The translations under genes were made by a program, and so were the position numbers. Positions 14,843-27,159 of a stretch of 64,000 bases of DNA are shown one piece after another. The stretch covers positions 186,001 through 250,000 of the forward strand of contig CALHBJ010000011.1 in the NCBI GenBank assembly GCA_937930845.1, in the 5' to 3' direction. Source of the stretch: an uncultured Rhizobiaceae group bacterium. Its GTDB lineage: Bacteria; Pseudomonadota; Alphaproteobacteria; Rhizobiales; Rhizobiaceae. Below the pieces are notes generated by a model, which was given only the letters and a program-made list of their open reading frames with translations, ran no database searches and had not been told where the DNA came from. Position 1 is the stretch's first letter, and each line of letters starts with the position of its first letter.

Positions 14843-15285
14843 AGGTACAAAGAAAAACATTGCGACCCACCGTTCGGGCACTGGCAGTTTCTTTCACACT
14901 GGCAATGGCTCTGGCATCTGGGTTGTTTAAAATTCCAGCCAATGCGCAAACATTGGACTGCACCAACCCCACTTCACAGGCTGAAATGACCGGCTGCGCC
15001 GCGCGCGCCCATGAGACCGCCGATGCCAAATTGAACGCTGCTTACCGTTTGGCCGTGAAACAGGCCAAAAGCCAGGACCAATATCTCGATGCCGGTCAGG
15101 TGCCCAGCCAAACCATGTTGCGCGATGCCCAGCGCGCCTGGATCACCTATCGAGACCGGGCGTGCGAAACCGAAAGCACACTGGCCCGGGGTGGGACGAT
15201 GCAAAATCAGATTTTTTTCATTTGCATGGAGCGGCTGACGAAAAACAGAGCCCGCGACCTGATGCTCTTCGGCCATGACCGATAA
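14839..15285 (+). CDS. Secreted LprI/DUF1311-family protein
   Basis: A 148-residue exported protein: basic N-terminus, hydrophobic segment and cleavage near ANAQT around residue 37. The mature part has the LprI/DUF1311 layout with paired cysteines: [19 protein letters not shown], the lysine-rich helix, [17 protein letters not shown] and a final Cys in FFICMERL. Some members inhibit lysozyme. Small open frames between ureB and ureC are known in rhizobial urease operons, so this placement is likely inherited. It is coupled to plsC by a 4-base overlap and ends 13 bases before ureC. Confidence 0.8.
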
Positions 15286-15298
15286 GGAATATACATCA

Positions 15299-17011
15299 AT
15301 GCCTGCCACCCTCACACGCGCAGAATATGCCGCAATGTTCGGCCCCACCACGGGCGACAAACTACGCCTTGCCGACACTGATCTGATCATCGAGGTGGAG
15401 CGCGATCTCACGACTTATGGCGAGGAGGTCAAATTTGGCGGCGGCAAGGTCATCCGCGACGGCATGGGACAGGCCCAGACTACGCGGGCGCAGGGAGCAG
15501 TCGACACGGTGATCACCAATGCCCTGATTGTTGATCACACCGGTATTTTCAAGGCCGACATTGGTTTGCGCGATGGCCGCATCGCTAAAATCGGCAAAGC
15601 GGGCAACCCGGACACCCAGTCGGGTGTCGACATCATCATTGGCCCCGGCACCGAGGCGATTGCCGGCGAAGGCAAAATTCTCACTGCCGGGGGATTCGAC
15701 AGCCACATTCATTTCATCTGTCCGCAGCAGATTGAAGAAGCCCTGCATTCAGGCATAACCACCATGATGGGCGGCGGCACCGGCCCAGCCCACGGCACGC
15801 TTGCCACAACCTGCACACCGGGGCCCTGGCATCTTGGCCGCATGATCCAGAGTTTCGATGCGTTCCCCATGAACCTGGCCCTGTCCGGCAAGGGCAACGC
15901 CTCCTTGCCCGGAGCCTTGCACGAAATGATCCTCGGCGGTGCCAGCGCATTGAAGCTACACGAGGATTGGGGAACCACACCCGCCGCCATTGATAACTGC
16001 CTGGCAGTCGCCGACGAACACGATGTTCAGGTGATGATACACACCGACACGCTCAATGAATCCGGTTTCGTTGAAAACACGGTTGAGGCTTTCAAGGGCC
16101 GCACCATCCATGCATTCCACACCGAAGGTGCAGGCGGCGGCCACGCCCCCGACATCATCAAAGTGTGTGGCATGGAAAACGTCTTGCCCTCTTCAACCAA
16201 TCCCACGCGGCCCTATACGGTCAACACACTGGAAGAACATCTCGACATGCTGATGGTGTGCCACCACCTCGACGCATCGATTCCAGAAGATATTGCCTTT
16301 GCCGAAAGCCGCATCCGCAAGGAAACCATTGCAGCCGAAGACATTCTCCACGACATGGGTGCGTTTTCGATCATCGCATCGGACTCGCAAGCCATGGGAC
16401 GTGTGGGCGAAGTGTTGATCCGTACCTGGCAAACCGCAGACAAGATGAAAAAGCAGCGCGGACGACTGACCGAAGAGACCGGAGATAATGATAATTTCCG
16501 CGTCCGGCGCTACATCGCCAAAGTGACAATCAATCCAGCCATCGCCCAGGGCATGGCCACCGAAATTGGCTCTGTCGAAGAAGGCAAGCGAGCCGATCTG
16601 GTGCTTTGGGATCCGGCATTCTTCGGTGTCAAACCCGCCATGGTGTTGATCGGCGGCACCATTGCAGCAGCACCCATGGGCGATCCCAATGCCTCCATTC
16701 CCACGCCCCAGCCAGTGCACATGCGCCCCATGTTTGGCGCGTTTGGCAAGGCCATGACGAACTCGTCCGTCACTTTCGTGTCCAGGGCCGCACTGGAAAG
16801 CAATCTGCACGAACAACTTGGTGTGGAAAAAGCCTTTGCTGGCGTTAGCAACACACGCGGGGGCATTTCAAAATCGTCGCTCATTTTGAATGACGCCACG
16901 CCGGAAATAGAAGTCGATCCGGAAACCTACGAAGTCCGCGCCAATGGCGAATTGTTAACCTGTGAACCCGCAGAAATATTGCCCATGGCACAAAGGTATT
17001 TTCTGTTTTGA
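15299..17011 (+). CDS. ureC: Urease subunit alpha (catalytic)
   Basis: The 570-residue nickel-containing catalytic subunit that splits urea to ammonia and carbamate. Visible elements are the nickel-ligand block [26 protein letters not shown] with the lysine that is carbamylated to bridge the two nickels, [26 protein letters not shown], the mobile-flap block [20 protein letters not shown] and the nickel aspartate in [11 protein letters not shown]. The ATG at 15299 follows ATAAGGAA by eight bases; an in-frame ATG at 15275 overlaps the previous gene. All key residues seem present, so active urease is expected. Confidence 0.97.
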
Positions 17012-25266: not shown

Positions 25267-25965
25267 TCAGGACTGGCCGTCCCCTTCGTCGGAACGGGAT
25301 TCGCCCATGGACGCAAAGTTTTTAAACACATCATCCGCGCTTACATTTTCAGACGCCAACGCATCTGATTCCGCATCTCCAGCCTGGGTTTCGCTGGCAG
25401 GCAACAGGCTGTCATCAGCCGCACCCTCTTCAACCTTCGGCAGATATTTGGCCGCCTTGGCAACTTCCATGTCCAAATCGATCTGGCTGCAAATACCCAG
25501 TGTGACCGGGTCAAGCGGCTGAAGATTGGCCGAATTCCAATGGGTGCGGTCACGGATCGCAGCAATTGTGGTCTTGGTGGTGCCCACGAGGCGGATGATC
25601 TGGGAATCTTTCAATTCAGGATGGTTGCGCACCAGCCATTGAATGGCATTTGGCCTGTCCTGACGGCGTGAGACGGGCGTGTAACGCGGACCCTTCTTTT
25701 TCAGTTCCGGCACTTTGACTTTTGGCTCAAGCAATTTCAGCCGCACATCAGGATCAGCCTCCGCATTGGTAATTTGCTCACGCGACAATTGGCCGTTCTG
25801 GATCGGGTCCAGCCCTTTGATGCCCTGGGCGGAATCCCCATCCGCGATCGATTTGACTTCCAGCATGTGAAGACCGCACAGGTCGCCAATCTGGTCAAAT
25901 GTCAGTGCTGTATTGTCCACCAACCAAACGGCGGTGGCTTTTGGCATCAGGAGCGTGGGAGCCAT
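25267..25965 (-). CDS. trcR: TrcR-type cell-cycle transcriptional regulator (DUF1013)
   Basis: A 232-residue alphaproteobacterial protein of the DUF1013/TrcR family. The body contains LMPKATAVWLVDNTALTFDQI and an HTH-like part (IQWLVRNHPELKDSQIIRLVGTTKTTI) around residues 110-140. The C-terminal 50 residues are acidic and likely disordered. The family is conserved in Hyphomicrobiales and annotated as a cell-cycle regulator. The nearby rcdA gene supports that context. Symbol is by family only. Confidence 0.75.
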   Translation of the reverse strand: MAPTLLMPKATAVWLVDNTALTFDQIGDLCGLHMLEVKSIADGDSAQGIKGLDPIQNGQLSREQITNAEADPDVRLKLLEPKVKVPELKKKGPRYTPVSRRQDRPNAIQWLVRNHPELKDSQIIRLVGTTKTTIAAIRDRTHWNSANLQPLDPVTLGICSQIDLDMEVAKAAKYLPKVEEGAADDSLLPASETQAGDAESDALASENVSADDVFKNFASMGESRSDEGDGQS

Positions 25966-26187: not shown

Positions 26188-26376
26188 ATGAACGCCGATG
26201 AACCACTTGCCAAACGTCTCGCTGAAATCTCCCTTGGCGGCGATATTTCCACACTTTCTCTCGACGACCTGGACGAACGGGTCGAACTGCTGAAAATGGA
26301 AATTGCGCGCCTTCAAGATGAGCATAAGCGCAAGTCCAGTAGTATGGCAGCCGCCCAATCATTCTTCAAAAATTGA
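26188..26376 (+). CDS. DUF1192 small protein
   Basis: A 62-residue protein with the DUF1192 pattern LSLDDLDERVELLKMEIARLQDE, a short coiled coil, and an SSSMAAAQSFFKN tail. AAGGAA lies eight bases before the ATG at 26188. This small family occurs in Hyphomicrobiales beside trcR and rcdA. Function unknown. Confidence 0.8.
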   Translation: MNADEPLAKRLAEISLGGDISTLSLDDLDERVELLKMEIARLQDEHKRKSSSMAAAQSFFKN

Positions 26377-26404
26377 ACAAATAAACGGGGCATTGTTAAC
26401 CCTG

Positions 26405-26419
26405 TTAAGCATTCGTTAA
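26405..26419 (+). promoter_or_regulatory. CtrA-type box TTAA-N7-TTAA
   Basis: TTAA, seven bases, TTAA, with another TTAA nine bases upstream at 26396. This matches the CtrA consensus of alphaproteobacteria. It lies just before the small RNA candidate and about 210 bases upstream of rcdA, whose product helps degrade CtrA in Caulobacter. Confidence 0.6.
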
Positions 26420-26443
26420 GCTTTATGGGTCTTTAATAAAACT

Positions 26444-26534
26444 GTTCAGTTTTCTGAACTTCGTTGCGATGAACTCCTTCATTGAGACGAGCCTCCCTGT
26501 AAAACTTCAAGAGCCGCTCGCGGCTCTTTTTTTT
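26444..26534 (+). ncRNA. Candidate small RNA with anti-Shine-Dalgarno motifs
   Basis: About 90 bases with three hairpins in a row. The first is GTTCAG-TTTT-CTGAAC (26444-26459). The second is CGATGAA-CTCC-TTCATTG (26467-26484, one G-U pair), showing CUCC in its loop. Then comes unpaired CCTCCC (26492-26497) and a terminator with a T8 run. CUCC/CCUCCC exposed in loops is the hallmark of rhizobial trans-acting RNAs such as the alpha-r14 type. No protein frame occupies it. The 5' end is inferred from the first hairpin; a TTTAAT-like -10 lies just upstream. It could instead be a leader attenuator for rcdA. Confidence 0.55.
26510..26534 (+). terminator. Rho-independent terminator of the small RNA candidate
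   Basis: AGAGCCG-CTCG-CGGCTCT, a 7-bp stem with a 4-base loop, followed by eight T. It lies 98 bases before the rcdA ATG and 134 bases after the DUF1192 stop, so it separates the two genes and most simply ends a short transcript. Confidence 0.85.
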
Positions 26535-26631
26535 GCCTTCAAGGCGTTAGCCTTATTGCCGCATTTGCATGCCGCAGCGCTTTACCCATCATTTTCAGCC
26601 GCCTATGCTTGCCTCAACAGGGTGGAGTAAT

Positions 26632-27159
26632 ATGACCGTACACGATCAAACCCGGCCGGTTCGGCTGGCCGAGCATTTTGCAAGTTCAGAAAAATTCAAC
26701 GAGCTATTTTCCGGTGGCATGGACCTGGTGGAAGAAACAGCGGCGTTTCTCGACGGAGAAGGTCGTCTGGCTTCCAAGACCCTGTCGAAAACCGCCCATG
26801 CTCTATATGGCGCCGAATCCATGCGCCTGACCACCAGACTGATGCAACTCGCCTCATGGCTTTTGTTGCAACGCGCCGTATCAGAGGGCGAAATGACCGT
26901 TGATCAGGTCGTGGCGGAAAAGAAGAATGTGAAGCTCAATCAACTGCCTTCACGCCGTACCAGCGCCGGGTGGGAAGAATTGCCTGAAGGATTTCTCAGC
27001 CTCGTTGATCGCTCAATCTCCCTGCAACGCCGCATTCAAAGGCTCGACCAGGACATCTATCCCGCCGGAGACAGTGTTTCTGAAGAAAACAAGGAAAACC
27101 CCGTGGCCTCCCAGCGCGCATTGCTGGAAACCGCGTTTGATCCGCGCTTTAGAAATTAG
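26632..27159 (+). CDS. rcdA: RcdA-like protease adaptor (DUF1465)
   Basis: A 175-residue helical protein of the DUF1465 family. RcdA in Caulobacter helps deliver CtrA and other substrates to ClpXP during the G1-S transition. Typical parts are LAEHFASSEKFNELFSGGMD, a helical bundle with SMRLTTRLMQLASWLLLQRA, and a variable C-terminal tail. GGTGGAG lies five bases before the ATG at 26632; the longer frame to 26569 is less likely. It lies downstream of a CtrA box and a terminator, so it needs its own promoter after 26535. Confidence 0.85.
   Translation: MTVHDQTRPVRLAEHFASSEKFNELFSGGMDLVEETAAFLDGEGRLASKTLSKTAHALYGAESMRLTTRLMQLASWLLLQRAVSEGEMTVDQVVAEKKNVKLNQLPSRRTSAGWEELPEGFLSLVDRSISLQRRIQRLDQDIYPAGDSVSEENKENPVASQRALLETAFDPRFRN

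Follow-up and report, generated by a model that had tools for sequence, protein, structure and literature searches.

The window analysed here, a 64,000-nucleotide stretch of DNA, carries a 91-nt element between a DUF1192 gene and a DUF1465 gene, with the divergent trcR gene lying further upstream (Table 1). We take DUF1465 (PF07323) to be RcdA and designate the downstream gene rcdA. These three neighbours had been named in an earlier reading of the DNA letters (the sequence-only reading), and Pfam matches agreed with it for each (PF06698, PF07323 and PF06242).

Table 1. Features at the small RNA locus, in window coordinates
Feature	Position	Strand	Evidence
trcR, divergent upstream gene	25267..25965	-	PF06242, E 7.7e-66
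DUF1192 gene, upstream	26188..26376	+	PF06698, E 2.5e-15
Extra TTAA half-site overlapping the box (TTAA-N5-TTAA), common to many genus relatives	26396..26408	+	alignment
CtrA-type box TTAA-GCATTCG-TTAA, 8/8 consensus letters	26405..26419	+	sequence; conserved across loci
Possible -10 hexamer TTTAAT	26432..26437	+	by eye
Small RNA body (BjrC1505 / SmelC671 family)	26444..26534	+	fold; model R1 match
Hairpin 1, GUUCAG-UUUU-CUGAAC	26444..26459	+	fold
Hairpin 2, 4-nt loop CUCC at 26474-26477	26460..26491	+	fold
Single-stranded CCUCCCUGU, anti-Shine-Dalgarno element, likely pairing site	26492..26500	+	fold
Intrinsic terminator: stem 26509-26528, eight T at 26527-26534	26509..26534	+	terminator scan + fold
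rcdA (DUF1465), downstream	26632..27159	+	PF07323, E 5.8e-53

The element folds at -31.0 kcal/mol (z -4.64); 200 dinucleotide shuffles gave -17.7 +/- 2.9 kcal/mol, and none folded as low. The fold reproduced the three hairpins described in the sequence-only reading, together with the CUCC displayed in the second loop of the window copy and the unpaired CCUCCC (26492-26497, within the single-stranded CCUCCCUGU) ahead of a strong terminator with eight T. In a longer fold (160 nt from 26377), the CCUCC region is paired with an upstream GGGGC, as read from the bracket line; thus, the unpaired state depends on where the RNA starts. An ATG ORF at 26469-26630 in the ORF list overlaps the element and had no Pfam match. 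The corresponding frame in 5 genus relatives, taken from the start nearest that place, spans 5-10 codons in 4 (two of these starts being GTG, not ATG) and 41 codons in one. With the short frames in 4 of the 5 relatives and no Pfam match, a real gene is unlikely; therefore, we rejected a protein frame within hairpin 2, in line with the earlier statement that no protein frame explains the element.

The model R1, built from 68 sequences, matched the window at 26444-26533 (G000:C11:212444-212533) with 74.1 bits (E 6.4e-10), which is the only R1 place in its own genome at E 0.001. A 26-base near match to the junction between CCUCCCUGU and the terminator occurs elsewhere in that genome (G000:C1:542215; L002:1501-1526). 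Its stem is imperfect and a T run is missing, and it was rejected as a second copy.

The hairpins are conserved by compensation, a check that the sequence-only reading had proposed. In alignment A2 (68 rows, of which 18 come from the 26 loci of the BLAST set and 50 from the 66 distinct named segments), 11 of 18 consensus pairs changed on both sides, and compensated cells numbered 41, whereas shuffles gave 9.1 +/- 2.6 (none of 500 reached 41) and slid structures 3-20; these counts lean toward conserved members, since A2 omits L015-L018, L020, L022, L031, and L034, mostly loci with a diverged middle. Changes on both sides were found in 4 of the 6 pairs of hairpin 1 and in all 5 counted pairs of hairpin 2, whereas 4 of the 7 counted pairs of the terminator stem were invariant in 67 distinct rows, partly because many rows came from a pattern that fixes GAGCCG. 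The sequence CCUCCCUGU is identical, by eye, in 22 of the 26 BLAST-set loci (window included), and the core CCUCC is kept in most diverged members, some of which retain nothing else of it. Of 8 relatives that we folded, 6 hold CCUCCC in a 6-nt loop above a UUGACG/UGUUAA stem; in the other two, S. meliloti and an Ahrensia metagenome-assembled genome, the motif is single-stranded, as in the window. Two anti-Shine-Dalgarno elements had been claimed for the RNA. The CCUCC(C) before the terminator is indeed shared, but the CUCC loop is not a family trait, since only 27 of the 68 aligned members have CTCC in the region of hairpin 2. In 5 loci of the window's genus as the tool defines it (L015-L018 and L020), the middle of the RNA is very different, and the box, CUCCCUGU or CCCUGU, and the terminator are kept.

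The RNA is widespread and closely linked to rcdA. A DNA search of 40 relatives and the window's own genome matched 27 of these 41 genomes; the 26 relative loci studied (L010-L035, with a few weaker DNA matches left out) include 25 with RcdA by tblastn and one, L035, without. Across 150 genomes of the order, own genome included, R1 found the RNA in 128 (131 places), and RcdA (PF07323) is present in 134 of the same genomes. In 122 of the 123 genomes that have both, the RNA precedes the RcdA domain on the same strand by 138-1224 nt (median 223); in the exception, G031, the two are on different contigs. The conserved neighbourhood that the sequence-only reading had associated with the cell cycle is supported. 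The 131 places comprise 122 beside RcdA, 3 (G031, G239, and G303) away from RcdA, and 6 in 5 genomes that lack an RcdA match. Of these 5 genomes, G232 carries two RNA copies, and G232 and G334 have the core CCUCC without CCUGU. Among the 11 genomes with RcdA and without an R1 match, 8 have a weak match (E <= 0.0063) just upstream of RcdA, obtained by searching only that region. In 192 genomes of the wider class, R1 matched 18 and the Rfam family BjrC1505 matched 34, of which 11 were over the cut-off; these 11 have RcdA near in 8 and only DUF1192 near in 3, and the 19 fetched BjrC1505 matches below the cut-off (own included) have RcdA or DUF1192 near in 11.

A pattern scan of named genomes, in which CCTCCCTGT and GAGCCG were fixed and which was blind to rcdA, gave at least 118 loci. 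The box and the rcdA linkage lay outside the pattern; the invariance of CCTCCCTGT and GAGCCG among the 118 listed loci is circular, and many of these loci are Mesorhizobium-like, so that counts are not independent events. Among the listed loci, a terminator is present in 111 of 118, and in 103 of these 111 RcdA follows on the same strand; with 900 nt of sequence required as well, RcdA is found in 85 of 91 (the others being L086, L088, L108, L119, L137, and L157). Of the 7 listed loci without a terminator, 6 lack both RcdA and the box and are titled Natronoglomus, Natronosalvus, Nocardiopsis, a Myxococcales, a Spirochaetia, and a "Proteobacteria bacterium"; L097, which has no called terminator and a slightly different T run, has RcdA and the box. 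Other listed loci include Mesorhizobium, Phyllobacterium, Devosia, Hyphomicrobium, Chelativorans, Hoeflea, Brucella, and Ahrensia.

Judged by these comparisons, the element is a real, conserved small RNA and a diverged, sub-cut-off copy of a known uncharacterised family, Rfam BjrC1505, a small RNA from Bradyrhizobium/Rhodopseudomonas. In the Rfam covariance search that the sequence-only reading had suggested, no family reached its cut-off with the element itself; the best matches were BjrC1505 (RF02356), with 29.4 bits against a gathering cut-off of 50 (E 0.00058 in a 271-base search), and suhB/MmgR (RF00519), with 25.5 bits against 41. BjrC1505 and the window RNA share the same hairpin order and CCUCCCUGUU ahead of a GAGCCGC terminator, and differ in hairpin 2, which has diverged in the window's genus. 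Relatives at the same locus exceed the BjrC1505 cut-off in 10 of the 34 loci given (6 of 20 and 4 of 14, the 14 including 8 fetched as weak own-genome matches). Nine of them lie beside RcdA (L021, L023, L024, L027, L028, L029, L030, L032, and L033); the tenth is L035, where RcdA was not detected in its 3,042 bases. A Methylobacterium bullatum copy upstream of RcdA also passes, with 50.5 bits.

Other identities were rejected. SuhB/MmgR resembles the window RNA in having a hairpin, CCUCCCU, and then a terminator, but it stayed below its cut-off throughout the window's own genome, and MmgR occupies a different S. meliloti place (as tabulated). Hairpin loops with CCUCCUCCC are an alpha-r14 trait. 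The kinship to alpha-r14 (NfeR1) that the sequence-only reading had proposed was not supported: no ar14 row appeared up to E 10, where only the best of overlapping clan-mates is printed, and the element has no CCUCCUCCC, a loop motif given for SmelA075/SmelA099 (PMC3927594). SorX missed its Rfam cut-off. EcpR1 and GspR are also rhizobial small RNAs linked to cell-cycle control, but their loci differ, being divK-pleD/rpmG and SMc03844/SMc03845 (PMC4414408, PMC5928217), and PmaR reportedly occurs only in Agrobacterium and a single Rhizobium sp. strain. The Caulobacter RNA CcnA is likewise CtrA-linked, with a C-rich loop that pairs near ribosome sites (PMC8959179); BjrC1505 had no match in 14 control genomes, Caulobacter included, and the likeness to CcnA is one of description. 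Elsewhere in the window, Rfam 5_ureB_sRNA matched at 15451-15740 on the minus strand (129.9 bits), antisense within a 578-aa ORF (15275-17011) that resembles, by eye, a urease alpha subunit; the match probably reflects coding-sequence conservation and is no evidence of an RNA.

The closest known system is Sm84/SmelC671 of S. meliloti, with which R. etli ReC71 is grouped. Sm84, located between SMc03988 and SMc03989, was predicted, with a sigma-70 promoter, and then detected as an ~80-nt band (PMC2573895); SmelC671 is listed as the same RNA, with 100 nt (PMC2873474). This RNA (SMc06875) is encoded on the + strand between two forward genes, and it is in print, by northern blot and RNA-seq, as a discrete RNA of 80-100 nt (PMC2573895, PMC2873474). 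A review table gives SmelC671 without a promoter entry and with the entry ZII (PMC7143759), which we read as a nodule zone. SmelC671 is further described as having a long single strand with the conserved CUCCCUGU, a 3' terminator, a wide spread in Rhizobiales, and extensive microsynteny (PMC3927594); a word search of the text of that paper returned no CtrA, rcdA, DUF1465, or DUF1192. In S. meliloti Ak57, the R1 match is exactly 100 nt long (L281:2703-2802) and lies between DUF1192 and DUF1465, the same arrangement as in the window. The 6S RNA lies upstream at a distance of 13.0 kb in Ak57, compared with 14.3 kb tabulated for Rm1021; by coordinates, the Ak57 match would be SmelC671. The window RNA has the single-stranded CUCCCUGU domain between hairpins, as defined after PMC3927594 (here CCUCCCUGU, 26492-26500), and the 3' terminator. 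No link of Sm84, SmelC671, BjrC1505, or ReC71 to CtrA or rcdA was found in the literature within our searches, outside which lay most subscription papers and supplements. As far as these searches show, BjrC1505 and SmelC671, hitherto two unconnected names, are joined here, and the rcdA linkage and the conserved CtrA box of this RNA family are new.

The CtrA-type box ends 24 nt 5' of hairpin 1; with 26444 as the inferred start of the RNA, it would cover about -39 to -25. The sigma-70 promoter scan listed no promoter, and the TTTAAT was not picked up by it. A ctrA gene is present in the window's own genome, and TTAA-N7-TTAA is the reported CtrA consensus (PMC12403871, PMC3616915). Among the first 80 listed pattern loci, a box of at least 7/8 letters is found at the same place in all 64 usable ones (48 at 8/8), whereas shuffles have it in 1.3% and random places in 0.6%. 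Among all 118 listed, it is found in 105 of 106 usable loci (78 at 8/8), and its end lies 64-81 nt before CCTCCC in these 105 and 69-75 nt before it in 93. Windows at other offsets gave 0-2 loci with a box, except for one just past the terminator (11 of 106), which may be the place of rcdA's own promoter. Loci chosen by R1 or by RcdA have the box in 32 of 34, with the RNA start set roughly for some of them; one failure has no upstream sequence and the other scores 6/8. In the 8 loci with weak R1 matches, the box is eroded: 2 score 8/8 (gaps 23 and 32), 2 score 7/8 (odd gaps of 12 and 19), and 4 score 3-6 of 8. The guess of the sequence-only reading that the promoter is CtrA-controlled thus gains strong comparative support, with a consensus box at promoter distance, as in members of the CtrA regulon, in the window (26405-26419) and in nearly all usable listed loci.

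In S. meliloti, ChIP-seq found CtrA bound at the rcdA promoter region, and rcdA expression was unchanged on CtrA depletion (PMC4433202). Binding of this kind, with rcdA itself unaffected, is consistent with a box that acts for the RNA. Besides the box upstream of the RNA (L281:2665-2679), however, this species has another 8/8 TTAA-N7-TTAA box, seen by eye between the small RNA and rcdA and thus nearer to rcdA (L281:2839-2853); therefore, the ChIP signal is not assignable to the box of the RNA. CtrA motifs have also been reported upstream of an rcdA transcription start site (PMC3616915), which could be that of the small RNA itself, and rcdA has more than one start site in all agrobacterial lineages studied (PMC10469942), of which one could belong to this small RNA.

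In alphaproteobacteria, CtrA is the master regulator of the cell cycle, and RcdA is an adaptor that helps destroy it. To our knowledge, few small RNAs are tied to CtrA. Comparison shows the existence, structure, and single copy of the RNA in its own genome, its linkage to rcdA, and its CtrA-type box. The best explanation, which we hold to be probable, is a CtrA-driven, trans-acting small RNA with its own terminator that pairs with ribosome sites through CCUCC(C): (i) CtrA would bind the box over the -35 region and switch the RNA on; (ii) an RNA of ~90 nt would be made from its own promoter and ended by its own terminator ahead of rcdA; (iii) CCUCC(C) would be displayed, as a single strand in the window and in a hairpin loop in several relatives; and (iv) it would pair with Shine-Dalgarno regions of mRNAs, lowering translation in the part of the cell cycle in which CtrA is active. 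The CtrA half of this mechanism draws on strong comparative evidence, and the ribosome-site half on the sequence of the element and on analogy with anti-Shine-Dalgarno RNAs; the exact start, the binding and activation by CtrA, the action at ribosome sites, and the mRNAs hit are predictions.

Boxes over the -35 region can activate or repress, and TTAA-N7-TTAA by itself is no proof of CtrA. That the box belongs to another regulator, or that CtrA represses the RNA, is unlikely in our view. Against another regulator stand the identity of the motif with the CtrA consensus (PMC12403871, PMC3616915) and the binding of CtrA to the rcdA region in S. meliloti (PMC4433202).

The near-constant position and orientation upstream of rcdA would also suit a terminated leader (attenuator), in which a long 5' region under a CtrA promoter tunes rcdA by conditional read-through, and no second TTAA-N7-TTAA box was seen by eye between the terminator and rcdA in the window. 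We consider such a leader quite unlikely. In L287-L292, from 5 genomes of three families, the RNA, the terminator, and the box (6 of 6) are retained at places where RcdA was not found, and S. meliloti makes a discrete RNA of 80-100 nt (PMC2573895, PMC2873474). The CtrA motifs upstream of an rcdA start site (PMC3616915) also speak against it, though that site could be the RNA's own.

A further alternative is that the RNA mainly represses rcdA, by which CtrA would shield itself from RcdA-aided proteolysis in a positive feedback. The linkage to rcdA suits this idea, and ACAGGGUGG before the rcdA start (26617-26625) pairs, by eye, at 8 of 9 positions with CCUCCCUGU. A crude comparison of 56 loci favoured rcdA (-12.1 vs -10.0 kcal/mol, rank test p 0.0002), with crude gene starts and related loci. 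With homology-based starts, however, the preference over DUF1192 was nearly gone (rcdA -11.8 kcal/mol, n=116; DUF1192 -11.0, n=31; TrcR -9.9, n=39), so that the rcdA ribosome site seems to pair little better than that of DUF1192 across loci. The rcdA ribosome sites listed also vary between genera, and genomes without an RcdA match keep the RNA; we hold repression of rcdA as the main role to be very unlikely. It is scarcely credible that the RNA is no more than a 3' end or 3' UTR processed from the DUF1192 mRNA, an alternative that the sequence-only reading had itself raised. The scan gave no + strand terminator in the gap from DUF1192 to the RNA, so that DUF1192 transcripts could end here. Against this, a DUF1192 gene was detected in just 44 of the 99 loci that have 700 nt or more of sequence 5' of the RNA, different long ORFs (translations only) lie there in two Phyllobacterium loci and in others, a promoter-like box precedes the RNA at nearly fixed spacing, and the S. 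meliloti RNA is discrete (PMC2573895, PMC2873474).

Beyond the trans-acting, CtrA-driven RNA at this locus, we give even weight to a wider reading, in which an order-wide anti-Shine-Dalgarno RNA, hidden under the names BjrC1505 and SmelC671, would form a conserved RNA component of the CtrA regulon, released each time CtrA is active to repress a group of mRNAs, with its locus kept next to rcdA. If this is true, an order-wide, CtrA-boxed RNA beside the gene of the CtrA-proteolysis adaptor would place RNA control inside the CtrA circuit, and the element may be an RNA branch of the bacterial cell-cycle circuit. The RNA may also bear on the odd S. meliloti result of CtrA at rcdA with rcdA expression unaffected (PMC4433202). 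Since the RNA is already on northern blots in a laboratory model, the idea is testable at once.

Target searches gave ctrA and rcdA no support beyond ordinary Shine-Dalgarno pairing; pairing with the ctrA ribosome site was weak in the 7 genomes computed (of 10). In 11 genomes of the genus, the exact complement ACAGGGAGG followed by ATG occurs at 29 places in 10 genomes, compared with 3 for the reversed control, an enrichment expected regardless for a Shine-Dalgarno-like pattern. By position, 6 of the 29 (L257, L259, L266, L268, L272, and L276) are the antisense of the RNA gene, and no recurrent cell-cycle target appeared among the places in these 11 genomes. The one BLASTP-similar pair among them is a DctP-type transporter protein (L261 and L279); further places precede a DctP-family protein (L253) and FlbT (L278), as seen when 4 proteins were searched against Pfam.
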